Shown: positions 524 through 42,479 of the stretch, in pieces
How positions within the stretch are numbered: the first letter of the stretch is position 1
How the letters are laid out: every line of letters starts with the position of its first letter
Assembly: GCF_000826125.2 (NCBI RefSeq)
Contig: NZ_LN651371.1
Location: forward strand, 261,762 to 315,204
Direction of reading: 5' to 3'
Length of the DNA stretch: 53,443 nt
Origin: Bhargavaea cecembensis
GTDB lineage: Bacteria; Bacillota; Bacilli; Bacillales_A; Planococcaceae
Translations under genes and position numbers: made by a program
Notes under the pieces: model-generated
Told to the model about the DNA's origin: nothing
Database searches by the model: none
What the model saw: only the letters and a program-made list of their open reading frames with translations

Positions 524-610
524 GGATTTTCAAAGGCGCGTGAGGCGGTTTCGCGGTAGCGTTCTCGTCCGCAGGATTTTCAAAGGCGCGTTCGTGCGAT
601 TCGAAGGCAC
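524..610. repeat. Degenerate 21/29-bp tandem array (array H)
   Basis: An 18-mer GGATTTTCAAAGGCGCGT occurs at 524-541 and again at 574-591. Between them a related TTTCGCGG word starts at 549. The TTTC words start at 528, 549 and 578, so the spacings are 21 and 29, and a decayed copy (TTCGAAGG) follows near 600. The array lies between the thiT terminator and the reverse-strand terminator at 645-668. The word and the spacing alternation match the array at 28011-28160. Confidence 0.7.
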
Positions 611-1558
611 GCCCCCCGCCCGCTTATCAACATCAAGGCAAAGAAAAACCTCCGGGTCTCCGGAGGTTTCGGGCAGGATGGCGTGGACGCCGGCTGCCTT
701 GCTGTATCGGGGGTCATCGGACGGGCGCTCCGCCGAGGCTTGGCGGCCCGTTCCGGCTGATCTGTCTTCCGTCTGCCTGGACAGTTCTTCAAAGGAAATC
801 GGCGCCGGCTGCGGAACTTCCCACCCGAGGACGTTCATCCGGTACGGCGACGCATCGAAGAAGGCGTTGGCCATGCGGCGGTAGCCTTCCATCGACGGGT
901 GGACATCCGCCGGGTTCGGGATGAGCTGTGCGGCCTGCCCTTCAAACCGGTCGGCGACGGGGACGAAGATGGCTCCCGCGGCTTCCGATTCCCGCTTCAG
1001 GATGGCGTTCAGCCGGTCGAGCTGCCTGCGGGTGCCCGCTTTCATTTCCTTCCGGACATGCGGGTACGGGAAGTAGTAGCCCATCACGTAAACATTGGCG
1101 CGAGGTGCCCTCATCTTCAGCTCGGCGAGGATGGAGGCCATGTTTTTCCGGACGCTGTTCAGTGCGTAATCCGCAGGGATCTGGTCAAATGCGAGCGTGC
1201 CGTTCGCCGCGTCATGCCGGATGAGGCCGAGCAGGTCGTTGGCGCCGGCCGAAATCGTGATCAGATTCGCCCGGCCGAGCAGGTCCTGCGCTTCCTCTGA
1301 ACGGACGCGGTCGAGGACCTGAGTGGTCGTGAAGCCCGGGAAGCTCAAGTCTTTCGAATAAAAGGCGAGGCCCGCATACCGCTTCAGCTTCAGCGCAATG
1401 AGGTCTGCGTAGCCGGCGTCGATCGCCCGGTGCGGCGTCTGTCCGGCGGCGAGGGAATCCCCGAGCGCCACGTAGACGACGGGTCCCGCCGCCTGGGCAT
1501 TCGTTGCAGGCGGAAGAAACAGGAACAGCGCCAGCATTGCCGCTGCCAACTTCTTCAT
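530..1558 (-). CDS. Secreted SGNH/GDSL hydrolase (possible 3' end defect)
   Basis: This is a probable exported esterase or lipase of the SGNH family. A signal peptide covers about residues 1-24. Block I is ALGDSLAAG with the nucleophile Ser35, block III is SAGAND (Asn107), and the catalytic Asp/His are in ADVHPS (Asp218, His220). The fold should end soon after residue 245, but the frame runs on to residue 342. The last 100 residues read through a perfect terminator hairpin (645-668) and into a repeat array, so the annotated C-terminus is doubtful. Another frame has a TGA at 714-716, so one small frameshift would restore a stop before the hairpin. The start overlaps the helicase stop by four bases (ATGA), which suggests translational coupling. 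Enzyme class is solid; the substrate is unknown. Confidence 0.8.
   Translation of the reverse strand: MKKLAAAMLALFLFLPPATNAQAAGPVVYVALGDSLAAGQTPHRAIDAGYADLIALKLKRYAGLAFYSKDLSFPGFTTTQVLDRVRSEEAQDLLGRANLITISAGANDLLGLIRHDAANGTLAFDQIPADYALNSVRKNMASILAELKMRAPRANVYVMGYYFPYPHVRKEMKAGTRRQLDRLNAILKRESEAAGAIFVPVADRFEGQAAQLIPNPADVHPSMEGYRRMANAFFDASPYRMNVLGWEVPQPAPISFEELSRQTEDRSAGTGRQASAERPSDDPRYSKAAGVHAILPETSGDPEVFLCLDVDKRAGGVPSNRTNAPLKILRTRTLPRNRLTRL
645..668 (-). terminator. Intrinsic terminator of the helicase-SGNH unit
   Basis: The stem AAACCTCCGG/CCGGAGGTTT with a short loop is followed on the reverse strand by a T-rich tract. It lies inside the open frame of the SGNH gene, which is odd. Confidence 0.8.
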
Positions 1559-2778
1559 CGGCGTCCGCTCCGTTTCCCTTTCGCGTTTCCGCCCGCGGGT
1601 TTGCGGCCGCCCGTAGACCCGGACGGACGGGTTTTCGGCTGTCCGGCCGAAACCGTCTTGGCTGAGCCTTCCACGAGCGATCCTTTATGCCAGGTCTTCT
1701 GCACCGGCTTGCCCGGCAGTTCCCGGGTCAGTTTCCGGTATGTCTTCTCATCGGGATAGGAGATGAACGCCAGCACTTCTCCGTCTGCACCCGCGCGGCC
1801 CGTCCGCCCGGAGCGGTGCGTATACTGCTCGGCCGTGCGCGGGACATCGATATGGATCACATGAGTCAGGCCGGTGATGTCCAGGCCCCGCGCCGCCACG
1901 TCCGTTGCAATGAGGATGCGGACCTTGCCGTTTCTGAAATCGTCGAGCGCCTGCTTCCGTTCCATTTTGTTCATTCCGGAGTGGAGGACGGCGACCGGTG
2001 CGTCGTCGAATTTCAGCTTGGACTCTTTCATGAGCAGCTGGTCGGTATTGTTGATGAAGGCGAGCGCATGGATATTCTCCTGATGGGACAGCCGGCGGAT
2101 GAGATCGGTCTTGTCGCGTTCTTCCACTTTCACGAACGAATGGACCACATGCCCCTGGGCCGGCATTTCGTCCGCAGCCACCCGGATGTGGACAGGCTCG
2201 TCCATGAACCGCTCCGCAACGAGGCGGATCTCGTCCGTCACAGTGGCCGACACGACGGCCACCCGGCAATCCGGCGAAGCGGAACCGATGAGCGACTTGA
2301 CGTCGGACCGGTGTTCCCGGCCGAGCAGCTGGTCTCCTTCATCGAGGATGATGTGCCGGATGTCGTGCATTTTCAGCTTCCGGTCATTTGCAAGTTCCCA
2401 GATGCGGCCGGGTGTCCCGACGACGATTGTCGGCTTCTTTTTCAGTTTTTCGATCTGGCGCTGTTTGTTGGCGCCGCCGATGAGCTGGGTCACCGTAATA
2501 TCCATCCCGGCCGTCCATTCGCGGAAGACTTCGACGATCTGCATGCACAGCTCCTGGGAAGGCGCCATGATGAGTGCTTCCGTCTTGTTCGCACTGCCGT
2601 CCACGAGCATGAGAAGCGGAATCACGTAGGCCAGCGTCTTGCCGGACCCGGTCGGGGATTCCGCCACGACGTCCCGGCCGTCGAGCATCGCCGGGATCAT
2701 CTGCGTCTGGATCGGCATCTCTTCTTCGAATGTCCATTTTTCCTTCAGTTCCGGCTCCAGTCGTTCCAGAAAGCTCAT
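1555..2778 (-). CDS. DEAD-box type RNA helicase (DEGD variant)
   Basis: ATP-dependent RNA helicase of 407 residues with both RecA-like domains. Motifs in order: I (SPTGSGKT), Ia (APSQEL), Ib (TPGR), II as DEGD instead of DEAD, III (SAT), V (ATDVAARGLDI) and VI (HRSGRTGRAG). A short basic Gly/Lys/Arg tail (GGRKPAGGNAKGKRSGRR) probably binds RNA. Length and layout resemble the short YfmL-type helicases of Bacillus that act in ribosome assembly or cold growth, but the exact orthologue is not certain. It is the first gene of a two-gene unit with the SGNH hydrolase. The Ala-to-Gly change in motif II keeps the two acidic residues needed for Mg-ATP. Confidence 0.88.
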   Translation of the reverse strand: MSFLERLEPELKEKWTFEEEMPIQTQMIPAMLDGRDVVAESPTGSGKTLAYVIPLLMLVDGSANKTEALIMAPSQELCMQIVEVFREWTAGMDITVTQLIGGANKQRQIEKLKKKPTIVVGTPGRIWELANDRKLKMHDIRHIILDEGDQLLGREHRSDVKSLIGSASPDCRVAVVSATVTDEIRLVAERFMDEPVHIRVAADEMPAQGHVVHSFVKVEERDKTDLIRRLSHQENIHALAFINNTDQLLMKESKLKFDDAPVAVLHSGMNKMERKQALDDFRNGKVRILIATDVAARGLDITGLTHVIHIDVPRTAEQYTHRSGRTGRAGADGEVLAFISYPDEKTYRKLTRELPGKPVQKTWHKGSLVEGSAKTVSAGQPKTRPSGSTGGRKPAGGNAKGKRSGRR

Positions 2779-2961
2779 CTGTCATTCCCCGTTTCGATTG
2801 CTTGATGATTCCATTTTAGCACAGACGGGGCGTTCTTCTCACTGCGGGCCCGCAGTTGGCAATTGGTCCGTGAATTCTGATTCCTCCGGGCTCCATCGCT
2901 TCCCTTTCCGTCCGCTTGAATAAAGCCGATTTTGACTACATTCAATCCAAAACAACCTCGA

Positions 2962-2996
2962 AAAAAACGACCGGATTTTCAAAGTCCCGGTCGTTT
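2962..2996 (-). terminator. Intrinsic terminator after the racemase gene
   Basis: Ten-base stem AAACGACCGG/CCGGTCGTTT, followed by T on the reverse strand. Confidence 0.85.
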
Positions 2997-3006
2997 CCGT
3001 CTGCGC

Positions 3007-3711
3007 TTATTCTTCTTTCAGCCGGTGGCCGCAGGCGGTGATGGCGGCTTCGGCAATGACCCTCAGCGAGTCCAGGTAGCGGGTGCCGAGCGAGAGTTCC
3101 CGCTTGACCACCGACAGCTCGGTGCAGCCGAGGACGATGCGGTCGCATCCCCTGCCGGCCATATGCCGGTCGATCCGTTCCCATGTCGCCGGGTCCGCCG
3201 GCCGGCCGGCCTTGATCTGATCATAGATGACCGTCATGACATCTTGCTGAATGGCGGATTCCGGGATCACGGGTTCCATGCCGGCCCTCCGGCATGCATC
3301 CTGATAGACGCCGGATGCAATCGTCCCGTCGGTCGCCAGGATTCCGAGAGTCCGGGCACCTTCCCTTTCCGCCTGCGTGACGGTCTCCTCGATCATGTTC
3401 AGCACGGGGACGGGAGAGGCGGCCGCGATCTCCCGGTAAAAGGTATGGGCCGTATTGCACGGGATGACGATCAGCTCCGCACCCGCCGTTGCCAGCCGCT
3501 TCGTGTCCGCGATGATGGGCGGCACCGGATCCGCTTTCGTCCGGTCGAGGATGAATTCGGTCCGGTCCGGGATATCCGTATTGTTCGTGATGACCATGTT
3601 CAGGTGATCCTGATCGCGGACGGCATCTGTCCGCCGGACGACCATCTCGCCGATATACATCGTGGCGAGCGGGCCGACGCCGCCGAGGATGCCCAATGTC
3701 TTTTTCTTCAT
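3007..3711 (-). CDS. Aspartate/glutamate racemase family protein
   Basis: A 234-residue cofactor-independent amino acid racemase of the Asp/Glu/hydantoin racemase superfamily. The two catalytic cysteines are Cys85 in VIPCNTAH and Cys196 in LGCTEL. The N-terminus KKTLGILGGVGPLAT and the NNTDIPDR stretch fit the RacX/YgeA/aspartate racemase group better than glutamate racemase MurI. An upstream TTG at 3720 is possible, but AAAGGA lies nine bases before the ATG at 3711, so that start is preferred. In Enterococcus faecium an aspartate racemase supplies the D-Asp ligase that builds the peptidoglycan cross-bridge. A homologous ligase is encoded at 7955-9175, so a link is plausible but inferred. Confidence 0.82.
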   Translation of the reverse strand: MKKKTLGILGGVGPLATMYIGEMVVRRTDAVRDQDHLNMVITNNTDIPDRTEFILDRTKADPVPPIIADTKRLATAGAELIVIPCNTAHTFYREIAAASPVPVLNMIEETVTQAEREGARTLGILATDGTIASGVYQDACRRAGMEPVIPESAIQQDVMTVIYDQIKAGRPADPATWERIDRHMAGRGCDRIVLGCTELSVVKRELSLGTRYLDSLRVIAEAAITACGHRLKEE

Positions 3712-3771
3712 GATGTCCAATCCTTTGATGTTCCGAATTCAAATTTCAATTCATCATTATAACACAATACT

Positions 3772-5229
3772 TCACAGCTCCGGAGGCACACGGCCGGAAA
3801 CCTTCTGTTCGTAGGCATAAGCGTAGCCGATGAGCCGGGGCTCCGAAAATGCCCGGCCGTAAAACGTGATGCCGAACGGCTCCCCGCCTTCCTCTTGGCC
3901 GGACGGGACGGCCACGCCCGGATAGCCGGCGGCCGACCCGAAACTCGACCCGTGGCTTTTCGGGAAGACGAGTGCGCTGATGCGGTATTTGCGGAACGCG
4001 GATTCAAGCGCAATCTCCCCCGCCAGGTGGCGGTTCCGCTCGAGCGCCTCGAGATATGCGCGCTCCGTGAGCCCGCCGGACGTGCGTTCCGACTCTTCAA
4101 ACAGGTTCTGTCCGAACCGGAGGGTCTCTTCCGGATGCTCCTCGTTGAAATCCATCACATCGGACAAGGTCCGGATCGGGTTATCCGGGGACGTCCGGCC
4201 GAGATAAGCGTTGAGGGCCGCCTTGAACTCGTGCAGGAGCACGTCGTAGCCAAGATCGTCCTCCATCACACCGAGGTCGATGTCATCCACGATCTCCGCT
4301 CCGCATTCGCGCAATTGATCGAGCGCCCGGTCGAACAGCCGGTTGCGCCCGGTGTCCGCCTCCCGTTCGAAGATATTCCGGGCGACGCCGAGGCGCACGC
4401 CGTTCAGCGCGTTCCGGTCGAGCACCGATTCCCAGTCCTGCTCTCCCCAGACGGCACTCAGCGCGGTCACGGGGTCTGCGGGATCCCGGCCGATCATCCC
4501 GAGGAAAACGGCCAGCGCATCTTCGACGGTCCGTGCGAGCGGACCGGGCGTGTCCTGCGTGACCGACAGCGGAATGACGCCTGTCCGGCTGATGGCGCCG
4601 ACCGTCGGCTTGATGCCGACGAGGCTGTTCTGCGAAGCCGGCTCGATGATCGACCCGCTCGTTTCGGTCCCGATCGAAGCCGCTGCCAGGTTCGCCGAAA
4701 CCGCGGCTGCGGCCCCCGAACTGGATCCGCCGACGTCAATCGGGCCGTACGGACTTTTCACCTGGCCGCCGCGCGAGCTCCAGCCGTTCGTCATCTTGTC
4801 CGACATGAAATTCGCCCACTCGGTCATGTTCGTCTTCCCGAGGATGGCGGCGCCCGCTCCCCTCAGCCGGCGGACAAGGAAGGCATCCTCCGCCGCATAA
4901 TGATCCTTCAGTGCCAGCGACCCCGCGCTCGTATGCATCTTGTCGCCCGTATCCATATTGTCCTTCAGCAGGACCGGAATCCCGTGGAGCGGGGAGCGGA
5001 TGCCGCTTGTGCGGCGCTCGAAATCCAGCATCCGGGCGATCTGCATCGCGTCTGGATTGATTTCCAGGACCGAGTTGATGTTGCGGTCCGTCTCCGAAAT
5101 CTCCGCGAGGTACATCGAGACAATCTCCTCGGACGTCACTTCCCCCGCATCCATTTTCTCCTGCATCGCCCGGATGGTCGCTTCGGGCAGCCATTCTCTT
5201 CTGAGCTTGTCCAGTCTTCCGTTGTTCAT
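3772..5229 (-). CDS. Amidase signature family hydrolase
   Basis: A 485-residue amidase of the Ser-cisSer-Lys family. The catalytic Lys89 is in VLLKDNMDTG, the glycine-serine loop GGSSSGAAAAV (167-177) carries the cis-Ser, and GTETSGSI carries the nucleophile Ser193. The family hydrolyses amides or supports amidotransfer. It is clearly distinct from the GatA at the other end of the window. The substrate cannot be read from the sequence. The gene sits 60 bases upstream of the racemase on the same strand, so the two may be co-transcribed and may act on related amino-acid amides (inference). Confidence 0.85.
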   Translation of the reverse strand: MNNGRLDKLRREWLPEATIRAMQEKMDAGEVTSEEIVSMYLAEISETDRNINSVLEINPDAMQIARMLDFERRTSGIRSPLHGIPVLLKDNMDTGDKMHTSAGSLALKDHYAAEDAFLVRRLRGAGAAILGKTNMTEWANFMSDKMTNGWSSRGGQVKSPYGPIDVGGSSSGAAAAVSANLAAASIGTETSGSIIEPASQNSLVGIKPTVGAISRTGVIPLSVTQDTPGPLARTVEDALAVFLGMIGRDPADPVTALSAVWGEQDWESVLDRNALNGVRLGVARNIFEREADTGRNRLFDRALDQLRECGAEIVDDIDLGVMEDDLGYDVLLHEFKAALNAYLGRTSPDNPIRTLSDVMDFNEEHPEETLRFGQNLFEESERTSGGLTERAYLEALERNRHLAGEIALESAFRKYRISALVFPKSHGSSFGSAAGYPGVAVPSGQEEGGEPFGITFYGRAFSEPRLIGYAYAYEQKVSGRVPPEL

Positions 5230-6847: not shown

Positions 6848-6855
6848 CCGCCCGT

Positions 6856-12176: not shown

Positions 12177-12239
12177 GTTATCTTTATCTCGCAGAACGTG
12201 ATCTTTATCGGGAGGATCGTTATTTTTTCCGTCCGGCCA
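12177..12239. repeat. 21-bp tandem array, word GTTATCTTTATC (array A)
   Basis: Three units of exactly 21 bases start at 12177, 12198 and 12219. Each begins GTTATCTTTATC or a close variant (GTGATCTTTATC, GTTATTTTTTCC), followed by nine variable bases. It lies just beyond the terminator of the RsbR-like gene (reverse strand) and before ypfJ. The word is shared with the array at 35223-35306. Confidence 0.75.
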
Positions 12240-12251: not shown

Positions 12252-12278
12252 AAAAAAAGCCGCACACGGCGGCTTTTT
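12252..12278 (-). terminator. Intrinsic terminator of the RsbR-like gene
   Basis: AAGCCG/CGGCTT stem flanked by seven A on one side and six T on the other, so it can work in both directions. Confidence 0.8.
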
Positions 12279-17430: not shown

Positions 17431-17703
17431 AACTTAATCATTCGTTGAACAATTTAGAAGGAGACATGCATGCGGATGCGGGATTTCTAGAGAGCCGGTG
17501 GCAGGTGCGAACCGGCAGTCCCGGCCGTGTGTTCCGCTCCGGATATTGGCGGGCTGAACATCCGAGTAGGCCCGTCCGGACATGCCCGTTATGCATGTGA
17601 ATGAAGGCTGCCGGCCGGAGAACCGGCAGCGAATGAGGGTGGCACCGCGAGGCTTTCAAGCCATTCGCCCCTTGCAGGAATGCAGGGAGACGAATGGCTT
17701 TTT
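17431..17703 (+). promoter_or_regulatory. T-box leader, serine type
   Basis: The conserved T-box AGGGTGGCACCGCGAG lies at 17636-17651. Its TGGC bulge can pair with the GCCA acceptor end of tRNA-Ser, whose discriminator base is G. A TCC triplet (serine) at 17561-17563 directly precedes GAGTAGG and is the likely specifier. The terminator uses AAGCCATTCG (17658-17667) and CGAATGGCTT (17691-17700) followed by T. Uncharged tRNA-Ser should favour antitermination and serine biosynthesis gene expression. Confidence 0.88.
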
Positions 17704-17733: not shown

Positions 17734-18897
17734 ATGCTGCAAGACCAACAGTATTTGAGGATTCCGGGACCGACGCCGATCCCCCCGAGCGTGGAGCGGG
17801 CGATGGCGAAGCCGATGGTGGGACACCGGGCGAGCGTGACGGATGATCTGCTGAAAAAAATCCAGCCGGGGCTCCGGAAGGTGTTCGGGACGGATCAGGA
17901 CGTGCTGATCGTCGCGGGGAGCGGGACGGCCGGGCTGGAAGCGGCCGCCGTCAACACGGTCCGGCGGGGCGAAGAAGCCATCGTCATCGTGTCCGGTTCC
18001 TTCGGCGCCCGGTTCGAGAAGATCTGTCTTGCGCACGGCATCATCGTCCACCGGTATGAAACGGAGTGGGGCGAGGCGTTTGAACCGGAAGTGGTGCGCG
18101 GAATGCTGGAGGAGCACCCCGGCGTCAAGGCGGTATTTTCCACTTATTGCGAAACGTCCACCGGTGTCGTGAACCCGGTCGCCGAACTCGCCCGTGTCGT
18201 GCGCGAAGTGTCCGATGCCCTCATCATCGCGGACGGCGTGTCGATCATCGGCGGCGTCGAGGCGAAAATGGACGAATGGGGCCTGGACGTGCTCGTCACC
18301 GGTTCCCAGAAAGCGATGATGCTGCCGCCGGGCCTCATGTTCGCTGCCGTGAGCGACCGGGCCTGGAACGTGATCGAGGCGAATCCGGACCGGGGATTCT
18401 ACCTCGACCTTGTCCAATACCGGGACAGCATCCGGGAAAACACAACCCCTTTTACGCCGGCCGTCTCCCTCCTTTACGGACTCGACCAGGCACTCACCCT
18501 CCTCGAAGAAGAAGGGATCGCGGAAGTCGCCGCCCGGCATGAACTGATGCGGGACATGATCCGGGCCGCATTCCGGGCACACGGCATCCCGCTCCTCACT
18601 TCAGATGAGGCCGGATCGCCGACCGTTACCGCCGTCCGGCCCGACGACTTCGACGCCGAAGGGTTCCGCAGCCTCATTCACCGGGAATTCGGCCTGGCGG
18701 TTGCAAGCGGCCAAGGCAAGCTCGAAGGCAAGATCTTCCGGGTCGGCCATATGGGCTACTGTTCCCCGGGCGACGTTCTCCAGATGATCGCCCTGTTTGA
18801 ACTGGGGATCGCCCGGGCCGGGAAGCAGATCGAAACCGGCAAGGGAGTCGCCGCCGCACAGCGCGTTTATTTGCAGAAGGGGGAACAGACGAAGTGA
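17734..18897 (+). CDS. Class V aminotransferase, phosphoserine/alanine-glyoxylate type
   Basis: A 387-residue PLP-dependent aminotransferase of fold type I, class V. N-terminal RIPGPTPIPPSVERAM and HRASVTDD bind the substrate, GSGTAGLEAA holds the PLP phosphate, IADGVSIIGG holds the PLP-pyridine Asp, and the Schiff-base Lys is in TGSQKAMMLPPG. The family is close to alanine-glyoxylate and serine-pyruvate transaminases rather than classical SerC. Because it sits behind a serine T-box and overlaps serA by four bases, it most likely performs the phosphoserine (or serine-glyoxylate) step. The ATG at 17734 follows AAGGAGG. Expression should rise when tRNA-Ser is uncharged. Confidence 0.84.
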   Translation: MLQDQQYLRIPGPTPIPPSVERAMAKPMVGHRASVTDDLLKKIQPGLRKVFGTDQDVLIVAGSGTAGLEAAAVNTVRRGEEAIVIVSGSFGARFEKICLAHGIIVHRYETEWGEAFEPEVVRGMLEEHPGVKAVFSTYCETSTGVVNPVAELARVVREVSDALIIADGVSIIGGVEAKMDEWGLDVLVTGSQKAMMLPPGLMFAAVSDRAWNVIEANPDRGFYLDLVQYRDSIRENTTPFTPAVSLLYGLDQALTLLEEEGIAEVAARHELMRDMIRAAFRAHGIPLLTSDEAGSPTVTAVRPDDFDAEGFRSLIHREFGLAVASGQGKLEGKIFRVGHMGYCSPGDVLQMIALFELGIARAGKQIETGKGVAAAQRVYLQKGEQTK

Positions 18898-20513
18898 TTG
18901 CCATCGCCCAAAAGAAACCCGATATGAAGCAGGCCATCCTCCTCATCACCGATCCGCTCAGCGAAGAAGGCATGCGGCCGCTCCGGGAAGCATCCGGTGT
19001 CGAGCTGGACGTACGGACCGGACTCACGACGGCTGAACTTCTTGATGCCGTCAAAACGGCGGATGCGCTGCTCGTCAGAAGCGGCACCCGGGTGACCCGC
19101 CAAGTGATCGAAGCGGCGGAAAACCTGAAAATCATCGGCCGCGCCGGCGTCGGCGTCGACAATATCGACCTGGAGGCGGCGACGGAACGCGGGATCATCG
19201 TCGTGAACGCGCCGGACGGGAACACGAACTCTGCCGCCGAGCACACGGTCGCGATGATGGCGGCGCTCGCCCGCAACATCCCGCAGGCCCGCCAGTCTCT
19301 CCTGGAAGGCCGGTGGGACCGGAAAGCGTTCATCGGCATTGAACTGAAAAACAAGACGCTCGGCGTCGTCGGCCTCGGCAGGATCGGTGCCGAAGTCGCC
19401 CGGCGCGCAAAAGGCCAGCGCATGAACGTCATCGCCTGCGATCCGTTCCTCACCGAAGAGCGGGCGAAGGAAATGGGCATCACGGCCGGGACATTCGACG
19501 AAGTCATCCGGGCCGCTGATTTCATCACCGTCCATACGCCGCTCATGGACGAGACCCGCCATCTGATCAACGCGGAGGCGTTCGCCAAGATGAAGAACGG
19601 CGTCCGCATCGTCAACTGCGCGCGCGGCGGCATCATCAATGAAGATGCACTTTTTAATGCCATCGAGTCCGGAAAAGTCGCCGGAGCGGCGCTTGATGTA
19701 TTCGAGGAAGAACCGTTCACCGGCCACCGGCTGCTCACGCTGCCGCAAGTGATCGCCACTCCGCATCTCGGCGCGAGCACGATCGAGGCACAGGAGAGCG
19801 TGGCGATCGATGTCGGCCGGGATGTCCTCCGCTTCCTGAACGGCGAACCGGTGAAAAACCCGGTGAACCTTCCTTCTGTTTCAAAAGAAGCACTTGCAAA
19901 AATCGAACCGTTCTTCGACCTGGCCGAAAAGCTCGGCGCGTTCCTGTCCAGGCTTTCCGATCAGCCGCTGACCGACGTAAATATCCGGTATTCAGGGGAC
20001 CTCGCCGACTGCGATGTACGTCCCCTCACCCGGAACGCGATGAAGGGACTGCTGAAGCGCAACCTCGGCACCCACGTGAATGATGTCAATGCGAAATTCC
20101 TCGCCGATTCATTCAACATCAGAGTCAGCGAGCACAAGACGACCGAAAGCAAAGGCTTCCAGCAGCTCATCACGGTGGAGGCGAAAATGGGCAGTGACAC
20201 CCACCGCGTCGCCGGCACTCTCCTGAGCGGGTTCGGAGCGCGCATCGTGAAAGTCGATGACTATGCCGTCGACGTCACGCCTTCCGGCCATCTCCTGATC
20301 ATCCGGCACAAAGACCAGCCGGGCGCCATCGGACGCGTCGGCATGCTGCTCGCCGAAGAAAACATCAATATCGCGACGATGCAGGTCGGCCGCTCCACCG
20401 CGGGCGGGGACGCCATCATGATGATCACCGTCGACCATGAAGTGAAGCCGGACGAGATCCGCCGCCTGAAGGGAATCGCGGATATTTACGAAGTCCGTGC
20501 GATTGATTTATAA
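18894..20513 (+). CDS. serA: D-3-phosphoglycerate dehydrogenase SerA
   Basis: A 539-residue enzyme for the first step of serine synthesis from 3-phosphoglycerate. The NAD domain has GVVGLGRIGAEVA, the substrate part has GRAGVGVDNIDLEAA and NAPDGNTNSAAEHT, and the catalytic Arg/Glu/His are in CARGGIINE, DVFEEEP and TPHLGAST. An intervening ASB domain (about residues 325-455) precedes a C-terminal ACT domain (HLLIIRHKDQPGAIGRVG) that should give serine feedback control. The GTG start overlaps the preceding stop codon as GTGA, which suggests coupling; an internal ATG at 18924 has no good ribosome site. It ends the T-box-controlled operon. Confidence 0.94.
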   Translation: MIAIAQKKPDMKQAILLITDPLSEEGMRPLREASGVELDVRTGLTTAELLDAVKTADALLVRSGTRVTRQVIEAAENLKIIGRAGVGVDNIDLEAATERGIIVVNAPDGNTNSAAEHTVAMMAALARNIPQARQSLLEGRWDRKAFIGIELKNKTLGVVGLGRIGAEVARRAKGQRMNVIACDPFLTEERAKEMGITAGTFDEVIRAADFITVHTPLMDETRHLINAEAFAKMKNGVRIVNCARGGIINEDALFNAIESGKVAGAALDVFEEEPFTGHRLLTLPQVIATPHLGASTIEAQESVAIDVGRDVLRFLNGEPVKNPVNLPSVSKEALAKIEPFFDLAEKLGAFLSRLSDQPLTDVNIRYSGDLADCDVRPLTRNAMKGLLKRNLGTHVNDVNAKFLADSFNIRVSEHKTTESKGFQQLITVEAKMGSDTHRVAGTLLSGFGARIVKVDDYAVDVTPSGHLLIIRHKDQPGAIGRVGMLLAEENINIATMQVGRSTAGGDAIMMITVDHEVKPDEIRRLKGIADIYEVRAIDL

Positions 20514-20525: not shown

Positions 20526-20552
20526 AAAACCGGGCCGCGGCCCGGTTTTTTC
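20526..20552 (+). terminator. Intrinsic terminator after serA
   Basis: AAACCGGGCC/GGCCCGGTTT stem and six T. Confidence 0.9.
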
Positions 20553-20585: not shown

Positions 20586-20716
20586 GACTCGCGTTACTCG
20601 ATCCGGCTCTGCTCACTCAGGTCCAAACTCTCCTCACTCGGGTCCGAACTCTCCTCACTCAGGTCCAAACTCTCCTCACTCGGACCCGAACTCTCCTCAC
20701 TCGTCCGAAAACCGTC
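20586..20716. repeat. 21-bp tandem array, word CTCACTC (array B)
   Basis: Five units of exactly 21 bases start at 20612, 20633, 20654, 20675 and 20696, with decayed copies before them. Each holds CTCACTC, then a variable middle (AGGTCC, GGGTCC or GGACCC), then AAACTCTC or GAACTCTC. It begins about 30 bases after the serA terminator. Two forward frames stay open through it with heptapeptide repeats, but neither has a plausible ribosome site, and the HAD gene lies opposite. Confidence 0.8.
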
Positions 20717-27106: not shown

Positions 27107-27274
27107 CAGGCGGGCTTGGGGAGGGCGAGTGTGATCGTGCGGGCTGCAAGTGTCATCGGACGGCGGACGAGTGTCATCGGACGGCGGACGAGTGTCATCG
27201 CATAGGCTGCGAGTGTCAGCGGAGGGCGCCTGAGTGTCATCGCATAGAGCGTGAGTGTGATCGCGCAGGTCACG
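27107..27274. repeat. 21-bp tandem array, word AGTGTCATCG (array C)
   Basis: Seven exact 21-base units start at 27128, 27149, 27170, 27191, 27212, 27233 and 27254. Each begins AGTGT, usually AGTGTCATCG or AGTGTGATCG, followed by 11 variable bases such as GACGGCGGACG or CATAGGCTGCG. A decayed unit (27107-27127) touches the terminator. It is the most regular array in the window. Confidence 0.88.
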
Positions 27275-27970: not shown

Positions 27971-28010
27971 TTGGCGGGGGTTGAGGAGCGAGAGATTGTG
28001 GCCGGAGGAT

Positions 28011-28160
28011 TTTCGCGGATGCGTCTGGCGGTTTCGCGGAAGCAAATTTCGGCCGGAGGAGTTTCGCGGATGCATCGAGCGGTTTCGCGGATGCTAATTT
28101 CGGCCAGGGGATTTTCGCGGATGCTTCTGGCGGTTTCGCGGATGCATCGCAATTTTCCGT
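28011..28160. repeat. 21/30-bp alternating array, word TTTCGCGGATGC (array D)
   Basis: TTTCGCGG starts at 28011, 28032, 28062, 28083, 28113 and 28134, giving spacings 21, 30, 21, 30, 21, so a 51-bp higher period. The longer units carry an extra AATTTCGGCC. It lies between ytaF and the terminator of katE. The same word and alternation occur in the array at 524-610. Confidence 0.85.
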
Positions 28161-28163
28161 ATC

Positions 28164-28203
28164 AAAAAAGCCCGACCCGGCTTCATCGGCCGGATCGGGC
28201 TTT
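28164..28203 (-). terminator. Intrinsic terminator of katE
   Basis: AAAGCCCGATCCGGCC on the reverse strand pairs with a GGGTCGGGCTT partner, followed by TTTTTT. Confidence 0.8.
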
Positions 28204-31195: not shown

Positions 31196-31321
31196 TCGAT
31201 CATAAAGGAGACACCCCGATCCGCAAAAGTCCACGCCCGCTCCGCGAAAGTTGATATTCACTCTATCGAAGCTGACACTCGCAACCCTGAAGTTGGTACT
31301 CGCCCCGCCCCCTCCTCACAT
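31196..31321. repeat. Degenerate 21-bp array, word GAAGTTGACACTCGC (array E)
   Basis: Units of 21 bases start at 31196, 31217, 31238, 31259, 31280 and 31301. The shared core, best seen in the middle, is GAAGTTG or GAAGCTGACACT followed by CGC; the edges have decayed. It ends directly at the cupin gene terminator (31328) and so again starts just beyond a terminator on the reverse strand. Confidence 0.65.
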
Positions 31322-31327: not shown

Positions 31328-31360
31328 AAAAAGCCCGACCGGCATGCTTCCGGTCGGGCT
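31328..31360 (-). terminator. Intrinsic terminator of the cupin gene
   Basis: AGCCCGACCGG/CCGGTCGGGCT perfect stem, then TTTTTC on the reverse strand. Confidence 0.9.
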
Positions 31361-33894: not shown

Positions 33895-35077
33895 TCATTC
33901 ATCCAGCTGTTCGAGCCTTTTCAGCCACTCTGTGATCTTCCCCGACTTCAGGAAATGAAGAAGGGTTCCTTCGCTGAAACGGTCCGCCCGGATTACACCC
34001 ATGATGAGCGCAAGCACCGCCTGCCCGTCTAAAGCCGATGCGTCCGCCTTTTCCATGGGCCTGCCCGCCCAGTCGATGCCGTTCTGTTCAAGAATGTCTT
34101 TGTATCTGTTCAGTTCATACTCCGGATGGCAATCGGCAAACCTGTGGAAATCAGCCAGGAACAACCAAGTCTCCTCGCTCGGATCAACATATGCCAATTG
34201 AATGGTTCCGCCATCATTTCGGCTGCCTCCGGACCATTCGCCATGCTGGCTTTCTTCCAGTTTGACGATATGGTCCGTCAGAAGCGCATACTTGCCATGT
34301 CCGTCATCGCCGGTCCAAGCCTGCCACTCCCGGTAGATTCCAAGCAGTTCTTCATTCAGGTAACCGAGCGCCTGTTCTTCAAGTTCTGCCGGCACGCCGT
34401 AAAACGCCTCCGCGATGGCACCGGTGATGGCAGCGAGCGTATCGCTGTCGCCGCCGACTGAAATGGCGGTCCGGATGGCGTCTTCAAACGACACAGATTC
34501 CAAGAACGCCTGGATGGCCTGAGGCACCGTGTCCTGGCACGTTTCATTGAACTCATACGTATCCCGGATGCCGTCGATGGTGAAGTCGAGCGGATAATAC
34601 TCCGACTTGATGAAACTCTGGATTTTTTCTCGATCCGATCCATTCCTCGCCATCCAGATCGCTGCGGCAACGGCTTCTGCCCCCTTCAGCCCTTCCGGAT
34701 GGTTATGTGTCACGCAGGTCACGGCGTCGGATCACCCGCATGGCCGCCCCGTTGCCGAAGCTGCAGTACGGCTCGGGGTGAGGATTGAACACCCAATTAC
34801 CGAACATGCCGCCGTATCCGCAGTCCGGATACTTGCGACCGATCTCCTGCATAAACCGGACGGCTTGTTCACTGAGACGCTTCATTCCGAGGTCTTCTAT
34901 TTTGAACAAAGAGCCCAGTTCCTTTTTGGTTTCCATAATGGCTTTCGCCACTGCAAGCGTCATGATCGTATCGTCCGTCACTTTGCACTTCTCATGGAAC
35001 ATCACGAAATCTTTGCTGCGGTGATTGTCAAATTCAAAACGCGAACCCGCTATATCCCCAATGATGGCACCAATCAT
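33895..35077 (-). pseudogene. ADP-ribosylglycohydrolase (DraG-like) with a DUF6508-like tail, broken by deletion
   Basis: The first part (35077 to 34703, 124 residues) has the family start MIGAIIGDIAGSRFEF, the metal motif VTDDTIMT, and FGNGAAMRV, then meets a stop in a shifted frame. The second part (from about 34722 to 33895) resumes in another frame at TCVTHNHPEGLKGAEAV and carries the second metal motif VGGDSDTLAAI. About 20 codons that normally join MRV to THNHPEG are missing, so a deletion of roughly 60 bases plus frame loss separates the halves. The C-terminal 140 residues (DILEQNGIDW, ADRFSEGTLLHFLKSG) resemble DUF6508. DraG enzymes remove ADP-ribose from proteins or nucleic acid. Neither half is likely to be active alone. 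Confidence 0.8.
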
Positions 35078-35222
35078 TGAATTCCCCCCGGTTTTTGATC
35101 CTTGGTTCTCATCCAGTTCGCCTATGCTTAGATGGTCAGTTTGAGAGAGTGCAACCACTTGTCCCCCGCTCAAGCCGGCGTCTCGTCAATCCAGCGCACT
35201 TGAAGAAACAAATCCGCAAGAT

Positions 35223-35306
35223 ACGTTGCCTTTATCAGCCGGAACGTTATCTTTATCGGACAAAGCGTTATTTTTATCCGAAGAAACGTTATCTTTATCC
35301 GTTCCC
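35223..35306. repeat. 21-bp tandem array, word CGTTATCTTTATC (array F)
   Basis: Four exact 21-base units start at 35223, 35244, 35265 and 35286. The word is CGTTATCTTTATC (first copy CGTTGCCTTTATC, third CGTTATTTTTATC) and the eight remaining bases vary (AGCCGGAA, GGACAAAG, CGAAGAAA). It starts just beyond the dus terminator on the reverse strand. The same word makes the array at 12177-12239. Confidence 0.85.
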
Positions 35307-35314: not shown

Positions 35315-35341
35315 AAAAAACGAATCCCGCACTCGGGATCG
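35315..35341 (-). terminator. Intrinsic terminator of the dus gene
   Basis: CGATCCCG, loop AGTG, CGGGATTCG, then TTTTTT on the reverse strand. Confidence 0.85.
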
Positions 35342-38142: not shown

Positions 38143-38179
38143 AAAAGTTGAAGGGGGCTAAATGCCCCTTCAACTTTTT
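38141..38179. terminator. Bidirectional terminator
   Basis: AAAAAAGTTGAAGGGG/CCCCTTCAACTTTTTT long stem with AAATG-type loop, between convergent genes. Confidence 0.9.
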
Positions 38180-38206
38180 TGCTTTCCAGCTACTTTCTGC
38201 CCTCAC

Positions 38207-39916
38207 TTAAGGAATGACTACGACATTATCCTGGGTAATGGTTTTCGTGAAGGTTTCAGCGAGGGGGTTTTTTCCGAGAGAATCGTCAGTGAGAACCGGT
38301 TCCTCGTTATGTTTTACTTCTTCCGGGACGATGGTGAGGGTGGACGTTTGGTCAATGTTGGTTTCTGGGATACTCACGTAGACTTTGTTGCCGTTAATCA
38401 CATTGCTCCAGCTACCCCAAATATAAACAGAGGCTTCCGTTTCGCCAATTTTAAGGCTCATCATATCTGTAAGCCGTTCAGCAAGATTAGTATTGAACTC
38501 TTCCCACCAATCCCGCTGTCCATCATCTTCATAGAACGTATCGTTAAATATAGTAGAGATGTCTTCGGAAAACGTAAGTTGGATCTCATGGCTTGTGTTT
38601 TCGCCAGGCGCTTTGATCACATAATCGGCGGAAACAAGGGCCGGCCCTACATTATCATGAAACACACCGGTCACCATGACATTCTTAGGCGCTTCTGTGC
38701 CGTTGTTCGCTGCAAATGAGTTGCCGACAATAATATCGCTGTTTATGGTTTTGACATTTTGCGTGATTTCGAACGTATACTCCATATCCGCAGAAATCGG
38801 CCCTTCCGGCGATGGAAGCGTAATAGTCACGTAATTCTCTTCGCCATAAATACTTGTCCCTTCAGGCATCGGACCGCCGTTGAACCTGTAATTCGAAAGA
38901 TCGAGGGTCGTTTTGCTCATGTTCTGAGGATAGATGATCTTAATTACGTTGTTATCAATGCTGATATTCTTGATTCTCTTGTACTGCGGCTCCCTGACGT
39001 TCACCTTGATCGAGGCGGTCAGATCGGTACCGGGGAAATTCCCGGTGAGTATATATGATCCCACTTCGTCTTTGTTGAGATCCTCTGTGTTCCACACGAC
39101 GGCAGCAGTGGACTTGAGTCCGCTCTTCAAAGTCACTTCGACTGTTTCCGGCAGCTTCGGCATTTCCCCTAAATTAACGGTAATATCCGCCAATCCACTG
39201 ACGGACTTAATCGGGAATGGGTAAGGCTCTTCCGTATCCAATCCTTCGGAAACTTTGACGGCGCGAACCATGAATGAAGCAAACTGCGAGCGGCTCGTGG
39301 TTTCAAACGGACGGTAATGATTGGCATTGGAAATCCCGTTCTCAATAATGATTTCAATGGACTTGGCATAAGCAGTTTCTCCATCATAATAAATATTTGG
39401 AGTGCCTCCCTTGTCTTCAAAACCAAAAGCCCTCACCAAGACTTCTGCAATCTGGTCACGCGGCATTAATTTTGAAGCGTTCAGCCTGTTATTGGAACCC
39501 TCAAAGATTCCTGCGTCTTTGACAATTTTCGAATAAACCACGAGTTCTGCATCAGCCCAGTCATCGGGCACATCATCGAAATTCTCCACACCGTTGATGT
39601 TGTGCTCACGCACATACTCTTCAAGCGTCATGCCGCTCTTTGAGACGACATACTTGCCGAGCACCTTTGCCACGTTGCCGCGGTTCAACTTTTGATTCGG
39701 CTTAAATGTTCCGTCGTTATAGCCGGTCATTACACCTAATTCATTGGCTTCCAAAACGTTTATGTAATGTGTGCTCCAGTTAGGGACGTCCGTAAATGGA
39801 TAATCCGATATCCACCCGTAGTACGGAGCAGCCGAGGCAACCGGAACAATCGCTGAACCGACAAGGGCAACGCTGGCCGTTGCCATGGCAAATCTTTTGT
39901 AGGTCTTTGTTTTCAC
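38207..39916 (-). CDS. S-layer-homology (SLH) domain surface protein
   Basis: A 569-residue exported protein. The signal peptide (about 1-30) ends VASAA. Three SLH domains follow (about 35-235), seen by FTDVPNWSTHYINVLEANELG with GYNDGTFKPNQKLNRG in parts, then DDVPDDWADAELVVYSKI and a third with YAKSIEIIIENGI. They bind pyruvylated secondary cell-wall polymer. Residues near 240-320 look like a bacterial Ig-like (Big_4) domain (ADITVNLGEMP, GSYILTGNFPGT). The rest is beta-rich with no known family. The start is GTG at 39916 after AAGGAGA; a longer frame upstream is rejected. Base composition is lower in GC (about 45 per cent in the line I counted) than its neighbours. Confidence 0.85.
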   Translation of the reverse strand: MKTKTYKRFAMATASVALVGSAIVPVASAAPYYGWISDYPFTDVPNWSTHYINVLEANELGVMTGYNDGTFKPNQKLNRGNVAKVLGKYVVSKSGMTLEEYVREHNINGVENFDDVPDDWADAELVVYSKIVKDAGIFEGSNNRLNASKLMPRDQIAEVLVRAFGFEDKGGTPNIYYDGETAYAKSIEIIIENGISNANHYRPFETTSRSQFASFMVRAVKVSEGLDTEEPYPFPIKSVSGLADITVNLGEMPKLPETVEVTLKSGLKSTAAVVWNTEDLNKDEVGSYILTGNFPGTDLTASIKVNVREPQYKRIKNISIDNNVIKIIYPQNMSKTTLDLSNYRFNGGPMPEGTSIYGEENYVTITLPSPEGPISADMEYTFEITQNVKTINSDIIVGNSFAANNGTEAPKNVMVTGVFHDNVGPALVSADYVIKAPGENTSHEIQLTFSEDISTIFNDTFYEDDGQRDWWEEFNTNLAERLTDMMSLKIGETEASVYIWGSWSNVINGNKVYVSIPETNIDQTSTLTIVPEEVKHNEEPVLTDDSLGKNPLAETFTKTITQDNVVVIP

Positions 39917-39968
39917 CCAAACCCTCTCCTTTTCTATGTTTAAATGCATACGAATCCATATACAGAAA

Positions 39969-39977
39969 ATTATACCA
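39969..39977 (-). promoter_or_regulatory. Extended -10 promoter of the SLH gene
   Basis: TGGTATAAT on the reverse strand, about 55 bases before the start codon, with no good -35. It is in an AT-rich region. Confidence 0.5.
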
Positions 39978-40277
39978 TATTTTCCGTACTCCTTTCTCTG
40001 AAGTTTAATAAACAAAAAATCCAGTGTGGGAAAATTCTATTTTCTTCCCCTGACTCATCAAGGCTACATCTTTTCCGGGACGTCTGACTGTTGGACTTCA
40101 TCATAAAAGTGACACTATTGTTTCCAAAAAACATCATTGAAGCACATGCGAAAGTGGAGATTAGGCTGGCTGGAAGACACATCCCACCGGGAGCAATGGC
40201 CGATCCCTCACTCTGTGGCCGTCTGGCTTTTTTCGCATATGTATAGGGAGACCAAACGAATAAAGGAAGTGAACTGC
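39978..40277. other. Intergenic region between the SLH gene and a small forward gene
   Basis: AT-rich on the SLH side and GC-richer after 40140. I see no coding frame with a ribosome site, no recognisable riboswitch and no 21-bp array here. Confidence 0.5.
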
Positions 40278-40526
40278 ATGCCGAGCCAGTCGGTGCATTC
40301 GCTGATCACCCAGACGCCCGAGGAAGGATTTGCGTTAGCGGTGAAGCTTGCACAAAAAGGCATCACGGTCACACAGCCATCCGAAGAAGTCCGGGAAGTG
40401 CTGCGGCCCGCCTATTCCACAAACCCGGACAGTCTGATCGCCTCCTCCCAAGTCATCGCCGTCCACTTCCAAACAGTTGCCGCCGCCAATAATTATTGGC
40501 GGCAGTGGATGCCTTATTATCAGTAA
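40278..40526 (+). CDS. Small hypothetical protein (82 residues)
   Basis: I do not recognise a family. The frame starts with ATG at 40278 after AAAGGAAG with eight-base spacing. The protein is soluble: a helix (TPEEGFALAVKLAQKG), a loop, a region IASSQVIAVHFQTVAAANN, and an aromatic end YWRQWMPYYQ. A perfect 22-bp palindrome lies inside its last codons. An upstream in-frame extension lacks a ribosome site. Confidence 0.55.
   Translation: MPSQSVHSLITQTPEEGFALAVKLAQKGITVTQPSEEVREVLRPAYSTNPDSLIASSQVIAVHFQTVAAANNYWRQWMPYYQ
40482..40503. repeat. Perfect 22-bp palindrome
   Basis: Half-site GCCGCCAATAA and its exact complement, with no loop, inside the 3' end of the small gene at 40278-40526. As RNA it would fold as a hairpin with ATTA at the tip. 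Confidence 0.7.
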
Positions 40527-40567
40527 GATTGTTCGGGTTAAAAAATCACTTTGCACAAATTCACAAA

Positions 40568-40592
40568 GACCCCCGAGCTGTTCGTCCGGGGG
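40568..40592 (-). terminator. Terminator-like hairpin after rlmCD
   Basis: CCCCCGGA...(C)TCGGGGG on the reverse strand with a seven-base loop, followed by TCTTTGTG, so the T run is weak. Confidence 0.6.
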
Positions 40593-40612
40593 CATAGAAT
40601 TCATTTCACTAT

Positions 40613-41977
40613 TCACTTCAATTCTACCAACGCAACGGCTTCTACATGACTCGACTGCGGGAACATATCCACCGGCTGAACTTCTTTCGTCTTATATCCT
40701 CCGTCTTCCAGAATCCTCAGGTCGCGTGCCAAGGTCGCCGGGTTGCAGCTGACGTAGACGATGCGTTTCGGGCGGTGTTCGAGGATGGTACGGAGCAAGT
40801 GCTCGTCGCAGCCTTTTCTCGGCGGGTCGACGACGAGGACGTCGAATCGCTTGCCGTCTTTGTACCAGCGCGGGATGACGTCTTCGGCGGCACCGGCTTC
40901 AAAGTGGGTGTTCGTGAAGCCGTTAAGTTCGGCGTTGCGTTTCGCGTCCTCGATCGCCTGCGGGACGATTTCGACCCCGTACACTTCCTTCGCTTTTTTC
41001 GCGAGGAAGAGGGAGATCGTACCGATGCCGCAGTAGGCGTCGATGACGGACTCGTCGCCGGTGAGGCCGGCGTACTCGAGCGCCTGGGAATACAGCACTT
41101 CCGTCTGGTCCGGGTTGATCTGGTAAAACGAACGGGCGGAGATTTCGAACCGGACGCCGCCGATTTCGTCGGTGATCACTTCCGGGCCGAAAAGCGGAAT
41201 TGTTTCGTCTCCCATGATGACGTTCGTTTTCCGGTCGTTGACATTCTGGATGATCGACGTGACGTCCGGGAGTACGCCCCGGATGAGTTCGACGGCGGCG
41301 TCTTTCTGCGGGAACTTGCGCTTACGCGTGACGAGGACGACCATCGTCTCGCCGGTCGCCTTCCCTTTGCGGATGACGACGTGTCGCAGGAAGCCTTTAT
41401 CTTTATGTTCGTCATACGCCTTGAGGCCGAGCTTATGGAGGCCGTGCTTGATCGCGCGCATGACGACGTCGGCCTCGGTCGACTGGATGAGGCACGTCTC
41501 GGTGTCCATGATCGAGTGCGTCCTGCTCCGGAAGAATCCGGCGACGACTTGGCCGTCACGCTCGGCGAACGGGATTTGTGATTTATTGCGGTAGCGCCAC
41601 GGGTGTTCCATCCCTTTCACCGGGTGGACCGGTACGTCCGGAAGTTTGGCGATCCGGTCCATCACCTCGCGGACCATCTTGCGCTTGCGCTCGAGCTGAC
41701 CTTCATACGACAAGTGCTGGATCTGGCAGCCGCCGCATTCCGGGAATACGGGACACGGCGGCTCGACGCGGTCTTCGGATGCTTCGATGATGTTCAGGAG
41801 CATGCCGAATCCGTATTTCTTGAGTGTTTTCGTCACTTTGAATTCGACGGTCTCCCCCGGCAGGGCGCCGGGAATGAAGAGCGGGTAGCCGCCGACTTTC
41901 GCGACGCCCGCCCCGTCGTGCGTGAGGTCGGTGATTTCGGCGGTGAGCCGGTCGTTCTGCTGGACTGCGTAGGACAT
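40613..41977 (-). CDS. rlmCD: 23S rRNA (uracil-C5)-methyltransferase RlmCD
   Basis: A 454-residue RlmD/TrmA-family methyltransferase. The TRAM domain (about 1-60: LTAEITDLTHDGAGVAKVGG) binds RNA. A 4Fe-4S type cluster is suggested by CPVFPECGGCQIQHL (Cys spaced as in RumA). The SAM domain has VIDAYCGIGTISLFLAKKA, DPPRKGCDEHLL and the catalytic Cys in VSCNPATLARDL. In B. subtilis the YefA protein methylates U747 and U1939. The start is set at ATG 41977 with GGAGGA eight bases upstream. The frame stays open for 168 more codons only because it runs into the repeat array. It follows dgkB in B. subtilis; here an 8-kb insert lies between them. Confidence 0.93.
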   Translation of the reverse strand: MSYAVQQNDRLTAEITDLTHDGAGVAKVGGYPLFIPGALPGETVEFKVTKTLKKYGFGMLLNIIEASEDRVEPPCPVFPECGGCQIQHLSYEGQLERKRKMVREVMDRIAKLPDVPVHPVKGMEHPWRYRNKSQIPFAERDGQVVAGFFRSRTHSIMDTETCLIQSTEADVVMRAIKHGLHKLGLKAYDEHKDKGFLRHVVIRKGKATGETMVVLVTRKRKFPQKDAAVELIRGVLPDVTSIIQNVNDRKTNVIMGDETIPLFGPEVITDEIGGVRFEISARSFYQINPDQTEVLYSQALEYAGLTGDESVIDAYCGIGTISLFLAKKAKEVYGVEIVPQAIEDAKRNAELNGFTNTHFEAGAAEDVIPRWYKDGKRFDVLVVDPPRKGCDEHLLRTILEHRPKRIVYVSCNPATLARDLRILEDGGYKTKEVQPVDMFPQSSHVEAVALVELK

Positions 41978-42086
41978 GGATGAGTTCCTCCGATACATGG
42001 CTGTTGGCTTCATTTTACCAGAAATGACGCGGAATGAAGAGCGGGGGGACGATATGAATCGTCTCGCCGGGCATGACCCGTTCTCC

Positions 42087-42479
42087 GAGTAGATAGAATC
42101 GTCCCTTGAATAGATAGAATCCGGGTCCGAATAGATAGAATCGCCCCTTGAATAGATAGAATCCCGGTCTGAGTAGATAGAACCCTCCCCCAACCAGATA
42201 GAACCCTCCCCAAATAGATCGGATCCGATGCAAATAGATAGAATCCGGGTCCGAATAGATAGAATCGCCCCCTGAATAGATAGAATCCGGGTCCGAATAG
42301 ATAGAACCCTCCCCCAACCAGATAGAACCCTCCCCAAATAGACCGGATCCGATGCAAATAGATAGAATCCGGGTCCGAATAGATAGAATCGCCCCTTGAA
42401 TAGATAGAATCCCGGTCTGAGTAGATAGAACCCTCCCCCAACCAGATAGAACCCTCCCCAAATAGACCGGATCCGATGC
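42087..42479. repeat. Large 21-bp array with 124-bp higher-order repeat (array G)
   Basis: Nineteen units of 20-21 bases. The word is GAATAGATAGAATC (with AACCAGATAGAACC and AAATAGACCGGATC variants) and the remaining seven bases vary (CGGGTCC, GCCCCTT, CCGGTCT). Units 2-7, 8-13 and 14-19 form three near-identical blocks of 124 bases at 42108-42231, 42232-42355 and 42356-42479. Because 124 is not a multiple of three, the reading frame shifts with each block, and all three reverse frames are open. The array sits between the cydS terminator-like hairpin and rlmCD. Confidence 0.95.

Follow-up and report, generated by a model that had tools for sequence, protein, structure and literature searches.

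Arrays of short conserved words on a 20- or 21-bp step past gene ends in Bhargavaea cecembensis, candidate rows of DNA-binding sites

Introduction

The iterons of the plasmids P1, F, RK2, and R6K and the ParR centromere repeats are direct repeats of 17 to 22 bp, about two helical turns, on which proteins bind cooperatively. The repetitive extragenic palindromic (REP) units of enterobacteria are palindromic and tied to RAYT transposases. Here, we study eight tandem arrays in a 53,443-bp stretch of DNA from Bhargavaea cecembensis (C1:261762-315204 of a 3.16-Mb, four-contig assembly, called G000), which we refer to as the window, together with similar arrays elsewhere in this genome and in seven relatives in the genus (G001 to G007; Edaphobacillus lindanitolerans and Bhargavaea strains), giving eight genus genomes. 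The repeat unit of these arrays consists of a word of about 12 to 16 bp and a freely varying, GC-rich spacer. We propose that they are chromosomal rows of binding sites read as double-stranded DNA, likely nucleoprotein clamps past gene ends, a reading to which we give a probability of roughly 45%.

The closest described repeats are those of Subirana and Messeguer (PMC8161180). The portions of that paper on which we draw report Bacillus repeats of constant size (20 to 21 or 52 nucleotides [nt]) and variable, species-specific sequence that contain short conserved words. These portions assign no function to the repeats, suggest either a polymerizing protein acting in the nucleoid or small RNAs, and remark on the length of two helical turns. 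The initial annotation of the window knew of no described element with such an architecture. This was not sustained, since our arrays belong to the published class, which itself is not new: they are mostly 20 to 21 bp in period (lags 20 and 21 dominate), noncoding, species-specific, and divided into about 15 word families (our manual grouping). Among the titles listed in our literature searches, none beyond the papers of Subirana and Messeguer (PMC8161180, PMC6749651, and PMC8625621) concerned Bhargavaea arrays or an array-binding protein. Beyond the account in those portions of PMC8161180, we observed strict spacing within each family, conservation of the word over the spacer, random strand, location in 3' gaps with few arrays in divergent gaps, and reuse of the same address with different words.

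A 21-bp signal in intergenic DNA

We counted self-matches (at least 10 of 12 positions) in a 453-kb sample composed of the window and 20 stretches of 20 kb, with genes called by our own simple codon-model finder. At lag 21, intergenic DNA (63,306 bp) gave 1598 matches and coding DNA (383,181 bp) gave 190, whereas a single match was left after shuffling of the intergenic DNA (N-free gaps only). Lag 22 gave 0 matches and lag 19 gave 12. The multiples 42, 63, 84, and 105 were also present in intergenic DNA, as was a second set of repeats at lags 20, 40, 60, and 80. The lag-21 signal was found in 45 of 387 gaps. These data confirm the 21-bp intergenic arrays and bear out the genome-wide peak anticipated in the initial annotation.

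A loose detector returned 59 coding and 65 intergenic clusters in a sample with six times more coding DNA. At least 15 matching positions were reached by 52 of the 65 intergenic clusters (our count) versus 1 of the 59 coding ones, so that arrays are indeed not equally common inside genes. The same detector was applied to 613 kb of the 3.16-Mb genome, which is also our sample for gene context; its first 20 stretches were picked roughly evenly, after the map of pairs of the word GTTATCTTTATC had been seen. It yielded 63 intergenic 21-bp and 11 intergenic 20-bp arrays versus 15 coding ones, a density of about 103 intergenic 21-bp arrays per Mb.

Fixed words and free spacers

The period is a property of the word family: 21 bp for most, 20 bp for CATACTCCGATTT-type words, and 50 to 51 bp for the TTTCGCGG family, which alternates steps of 21 and 29 to 30 bp. 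Thus, the layout of a fixed word plus a spacer put forward in the initial annotation holds, but not on 21 bp alone. Likewise, the arrays do share a spacing rule, but the phrase "a rule, not a sequence" describes them only in part, since the word families recur between loci and some of them between species.

Among 107 arrays from G000 and G001 to G007, consensus strength was 0.88 in the best 14 bp, which is the best-conserved stretch by construction, and 0.63 in the remainder. In the clean arrays of G000, GC content was 40% in the word and 65% in the spacer, the corresponding figures being 50% for gaps without arrays and 82% for fourfold sites. The word GTTATCTTTATC has 77 copies in G000 (41 forward and 36 reverse), where about 0.4 would be expected at equal base use and where a control with the reversed pattern found 0 copies. 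Its copies within a locus are separated by multiples of 21, and it occurs at about 29 separate loci with differing spacers (hand count, after removal of three copies at single-N joints). By eye, the spacers of the GTTATCTTTATC arrays are nearly all different, which would speak against block copying between loci.

Spacing was strict in each family for which we allowed the gap between neighboring words to vary. Pairs of GTTATCTTTATC had a gap of 9 in 33 of 33 cases (7 to 12 allowed) and in 26 of 26 without copies at assembly joints. The gap was 8 in 62 of 62 GARAGTGAYGAWT pairs (6 to 10 allowed) and 9 in 13 of 13 pairs of the GAGTGTSAWCKY pattern (7 to 14 allowed); three identical pairs of the latter (C3:221505, 222704, and 225397) may be assembly-joint duplicates. 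For CATRCTCCGAWTT, 44 of 45 pairs had a period of 20, the remaining one being at 19 (gap 4 to 12 allowed). In other genera, spacing looked looser by eye, with 20 and 21 mixed in Fictibacillus (L123) and irregular steps in Psychrobacillus (L080). A core GARNGT seemed by eye to be shared by every word, an impression formed without a null comparison, and we do not claim it.

Direct duplications were present at C2:254892/255958, C3:107242/108109, and C3:2024387/2025734 (loci L008, L014, and L030), with lengths of 866 bp, 1346 bp, and at least 747 bp (to the locus end). The second copy begins directly after a single N at these loci, suggesting scaffold-joint artifacts that inflate repeat counts. 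We treated three GTTATCTTTATC loci doubled across single-N joints as artifacts, and one doubled array (L037) is still included in the counts of clusters, strand, and density.

Only one GTTATCTTTATC locus lies in the approximately 1 Mb around the inferred replication terminus (C3, about 0.86 to 1.87 Mb; the skew flips between 1.44 and 1.64 Mb of this contig), versus 28 elsewhere. We rejected co-location with replication as a rule for the class, as the 20-bp word CATACTCCGATTT lacks the terminus gap shown by GTTATCTTTATC.

Units with constant and variable portions, present in numerous copies and with species-specific words that shift in concert, would also be compatible with a known mobile or guided system that builds or reads the arrays, such as CRISPR, TnpB-type guides, REP/RAYT, or a reverse transcriptase working from a short template. 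However, Cas1 (PF01867), the TnpB-type zinc-ribbon domain (PF07282), and the Y1/RAYT transposase (PF01797) were each found in none of the eight genus genomes, which are drafts about 99% complete, and this explanation is largely refuted for those families. A CRISPR array was moreover rejected for its spacers (5 to 9 nt versus about 30 nt needed), and REP-type mosaics (BIMEs) with RAYT were rejected on the PF01797 result. The reverse transcriptase domain RVT_1 was found in three of the eight genomes and not in G000. We consider a system of this kind very unlikely.

Words are conserved over spacers between species

Relatedness was gauged on rlmD. The G000 protein is 93% identical to that of E. 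lindanitolerans and 89 to 90% identical to those of the Bhargavaea strains. At the DNA level, G001, G002, and G004 to G007 are mutually 90 to 92% identical, G000 and G003 share 88%, and these two share 82 to 85% with the other genus genomes.

We compared orthologous arrays in 35 nonindependent comparisons from 10 gaps, each having 90% or more of the array aligned and an identity of 70% or more. The share of differing cells was 14.4% for word columns (364 of 2521) and 28.2% for spacer columns (411 of 1458), a difference that rotated word labels reached in 0 of 2000 trials. Restricting the analysis to 21-bp arrays (16 comparisons) gave 11.0% for the word versus 22.9% for the spacer, and a looser first version with 56 comparisons had given 16.4% and 36.4%. 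Alignment slips between units could inflate the spacer differences in the 56- and the 35-comparison sets alike.

One array (gap 10) is instructive, as its five units are kept in order with largely matching spacers across four species. Almost every unit in G001, G004, and G005 has the word GAAAGTGACGAAT. In G006, three of the five units carry both changes to GAGAGTGAYGATT, one carries a single change, and the last, worn unit carries neither. On the sampled contigs, G occupies word position 3 in 18 of 19 lattice words from G006 and 4 of 6 from G002, whereas all 23 words from G001, G004, G005, and G007 have A there. Exact GTTATCTTTATC pairs number 33 in G000 and 0 in 60 relatives, the seven of the genus included; some other words are common to G000 and G003. 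A further array, with the word GCGCGCATAGAA (G002:C38 50830-51814 and orthologues), ends with an inverted copy of its own word, a potential hairpin, and the G004 orthologue retains this hairpin alone.

The main rival explanation is that the arrays are neutral or selfish satellites, in which slippage or unequal exchange expands units where they do no harm, that is, in 3' gaps, without any function. This would account for the rapid turnover, the species-specific words, the many orthologous gaps without array, the rarity in promoter gaps, and the larger duplications within arrays (a 124-bp unit at 42109 of the window; 40-bp alternating units in some other arrays), and would be in agreement with the lack of an assigned function in the portions of PMC8161180 cited above. 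However, slippage alone would homogenize entire units, whereas here the word but not the spacer is conserved, within species as well as between them. In addition, periods of 20 to 21 (and 50 to 51) dominate with other periods nearly absent, and a single word occurs at about 29 loci with different spacers. Neutral slippage is therefore disfavored, and we regard this explanation as unlikely.

Arrays lie past gene ends on either strand

We next considered the orientation of the flanking genes for the 333 gaps that measured 60 bp or more and contained no more than 10 N. Of the 44 convergent gaps, 13 had an array; the figures were 33 of 216 for codirectional and 4 of 73 for divergent gaps, and the scarcity of arrays in divergent gaps relative to the rest was significant (p = 0.009). 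In codirectional gaps, the array was nearer to the 3' end of the upstream gene in 29 of 33 cases (median distance, 54 versus 115 bp).

The initial annotation had placed the arrays beside intrinsic terminators. This stands for seven of the eight window arrays, which lie 9 to 38 bp from a predicted hairpin plus T-run (one of them, at 35324-35339, being weak), in a scan run at a slightly lower score threshold than that of the genome sample; the scan found none at 27107-27274. In the genome sample, the enrichment was moderate. The mean distance from array to terminator was 41 bp, whereas arrays placed at random within their own gaps averaged 62 bp (p = 0.003, permutation test), and the array was within 30 bp of a terminator in 19 of 33 gaps versus 12.5 expected. 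The distance test used these 33 gaps, as 17 of the 50 array gaps have no predicted terminator. The terminator link is thus real but moderate, largely a by-product of the position past gene 3' ends plus a moderate extra pull.

Words lay on the same strand as transcription in 22 cases and on the opposite one in 20 (19 versus 18 after removal of two overlapping word definitions), a random orientation that argues against a function of the transcribed strand. This bears on an RNA-level function, in which the arrays would be transcribed as small RNAs, sponges, or 3' untranslated region elements. According to the parts of PMC8625621 and PMC8161180 on which we rely, the 52-nt satellites of Bacillus coagulans are indeed present in RNA-seq data. 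However, besides the random strand, the window arrays sit past predicted terminators, and Rfam matched nothing in the window except an unrelated T-box (17446-17675). We consider an RNA function quite unlikely.

The same observations apply to the possibility that the arrays encode heptapeptide repeats. A unit of 21 bp is divisible by three (seven codons) and frames stay open by chance, but families of 20 and 50 bp exist in the same genome, the strand is random, the arrays lie past gene ends, and the spacer is free. The probability of this explanation is negligible.

Finally, the arrays could be iteron-like decoys or incompatibility arrays that match replication sites of plasmids or phages and provide immunity or mark past elements. 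Their geometry is that of plasmid iterons, each genome has many words, and the strand is random. Nevertheless, for the few arrays and word pairs searched there was no match: two arrays (of many) were compared with 72,556 plasmid records and one array with 50,697 phage records, and two exact word pairs were absent from a viral contig collection. We find this explanation highly improbable.

Different words at the same address

A syntenic place was found in one or more relatives for 14 of 17 array gaps of G000, and for 6 of the 14 it holds an array with a different word (hand counts). The gap of array 524-610 contains TTTCGCGG-type words in G000, GAGTGAGGAGAG in G003, GAAACGTTGA-type words in G004, and 20-bp CATACTCCG-type words in G005, and no array in G001, G002, or G006. 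Similarly, the gap of array 42084-42481 harbors GAATAGATAGAATC in G000, GTATCGAGACATTC in G004, GAGTGCTTCGAAA-type words in G002 and G006, and a TTATCGATCATTTCC-type array in two Sporosarcina loci (L059 and L063). No array was present there in G001, G005, or G007, nor, by eye, in locus L051 of E. lindanitolerans. As a counter-case to word replacement, a GAATGTTAAGCAA array is shared by G000 and G003 at the same place.

The eight arrays of the window

All eight arrays listed in the initial annotation are visible where it placed them (Table 1). However, Tandem Repeats Finder (TRF) at score 30 lists only five of them (starts at 20607, 27149, 28000, 35212, and 42083). The other three are short or degenerate, and their status rests on family membership. 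Most of the eight have at least four repeats. The first word of the array at 12177 (C1:273938) matches the genome-wide GTTATCTTTATC exactly, and the word of array 20586-20716 also occurs in G003, at different places. By eye, array 31196-31321 is a worn form of the AAAGTTGACACTCG family, and our motif count left it unassigned.

Seven of the eight arrays are noncoding, as had been claimed for all. The exception is 524-610: a GDSL-lipase open reading frame (ORF; 530-1558, minus strand) runs on through it at its C-terminal end, and the homologues of this ORF align only to residue 294 to 309 of 342.

Table 1. Tandem arrays of the window (window coordinates)
Position	Strand	Array	Word	Spacing	In TRF list	Predicted terminators
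524-610	.	degenerate; family by eye	TTTCGCGG-type	21/29 bp	no	483-501 (+) and 648-667 (-), converging, one on each side
12177-12239	+	short, 3 units	GTTATCTTTATC	21 bp	no	12257-12275, bidirectional
20586-20716	-	array	GAGTGAGGAGAG(TTT), on minus strand	21 bp	yes	20527-20548
27107-27274	+	array	CGAGTGTCATCG	21 bp	yes	none found
28000-28160	+	array	TTTCGCGGATGC	21/30 bp alternation (51-bp unit)	yes	28169-28201
31196-31321	-	degenerate array; family by eye	related to GAGTGTCAACTTTCG	21 bp	no	31333-31359
35212-35306	+	array	ACGTTATCTTTATC	21 bp	yes	35324-35339, weak
42084-42481	+	array with 124-bp higher-order duplication	GAATAGATAGAATC	21 bp	yes	42490-42524

Three further observations concern genes near the arrays or used in the comparison. 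Two overlapping ORFs (33895-35077, minus strand) share between them the sequence of an ADP-ribosylglycohydrolase (PF03747), and the gene may be frameshifted. The T-box leader mentioned above (RF00230, 17446-17675, barely over the cutoff) lies upstream of the gene pair at 17734-20513, the second gene of which encodes a D-3-phosphoglycerate dehydrogenase-type protein. Lastly, fragments derived from rlmD (44 to 90% identity, some with stops) lie about 0.4 to 17 kb from the intact gene on the same contig in G002 and G004 to G007; none was listed near rlmD in G000, G001, or G003.

Discussion

Strict spacing, conservation of the word over the spacer, random strand, and a home in 3' gaps together favor sites for a cooperative protein on double-stranded DNA over RNA, coding, CRISPR, and neutral slippage. 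We infer a reader protein that would oligomerize on the arrays and give them the function of a clamp or insulator. Each word family would be the site of a putative cognate DNA-binding protein, which would sit at steps of 20 or 21 bp, close to two turns of the helix. Neighboring proteins would touch head to tail along a single face of the DNA, like initiators on plasmid iterons or ParR on its centromere. By filling the strip between the terminator of one gene and the following promoter, the arrays could act as fixed nucleoprotein clamps that organize or insulate DNA, for instance as nucleoid anchors or as barriers to supercoils or transcription.

Several points weigh against this reading. The cognate protein is putative and we infer its binding. 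About 15 words per genome would require many cognate proteins or one loosely specific protein. The gene context covers about one-fifth of one genome. In 3 of the 16 comparisons of 21-bp arrays (gap 25 between G005 and G006, gap 28 between G004 and G006, and gap 10 between G006 and G004), there was almost no contrast between word and spacer. The word shift in G006 is not uniform across the genome, A being kept at position 3 at other loci. Address reuse is only moderate: it was seen in 7 of 17 array gaps versus 8 of 55 array-less gaps (nondivergent, at least 100 bp; p = 0.025), and with G003 alone as the query it fell to 3 of 8 versus 6 of 33 (p = 0.23), compared to 4 of 9 versus 2 of 22 with G000 alone (p = 0.043). 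Moreover, the helix-face argument is weak for the 21/29-30 arrays, because 29 to 30 bp is not near three turns at 10.5 bp, and these alternating steps fit a single face poorly. The interpretation of the initial annotation, protein sites at the DNA level that all face the same side of the helix, is hence partly supported: random strand, strict spacing, and word conservation speak for it, but the alternating arrays do not conform.

A more far-reaching version would be a chromosome-wide address system, in which a fast-evolving protein family, with one member per word, coats dozens of loci per word. Words and readers would coevolve and replace each other at fixed addresses past gene ends, producing nucleoid or insulator clamps proper to each species. 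We regard this version as doubtful.

Independently of it, a repeat class that was described but unexplained becomes testable here, in an array-dense genus with short exact words and with sister species that carry different words at the same address. Our data indicate a reader of double-stranded DNA with a 20- or 21-bp step, and its discovery could help to explain such satellites in many Bacillota.

Comparison with known systems

With plasmid iterons and ParR repeats, the arrays share direct repeats at about two helical turns and a conserved core with variable bases. They differ in that, in those systems, a replicon has one or a few arrays and the cognate protein is known, whereas here there are about 100 arrays per Mb of chromosome, which do not amount to a single origin, and the reader is putative. 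REP units and BIMEs are similar in being intergenic, on the 3' side of genes, in convergent and codirectional gaps, and in having species-specific words, but unlike our arrays they are palindromic and linked to RAYT, which was not found in the eight genus genomes.

The 52-nt satellites of B. coagulans resemble the arrays in their constant size and variable sequence, and we saw a period of 52 in three other loci (L090, L125, and L115). Tandem arrays of 52 bp are located at 4211-4973 of L090 (Alkalihalobacillus pseudalcaliphilus), with a unit made of a short word and its inverse, and at 875-1460 of L125 (Evansella clarkii). Units with inverted short words, seen by eye in L090 and L115 and reported in the portions of PMC8161180 used here, differ from two direct words on 21/30 steps. 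We rejected merging the 21/30 arrays with the 52-nt class on this basis, two of the three inspected 52-nt arrays having inverted words.

The closest match remains the class of Subirana and Messeguer, with which the arrays have in common units of 20 to 21 nt in noncoding DNA, several word families per genome, a short conserved word, species specificity, and a distribution that is dense in some genomes and absent from others. The class was described for Bacillus and other groups, and we find it here in Bhargavaea, with the further rules on spacing, strand, location, divergence, and address reuse that are listed in the Introduction.

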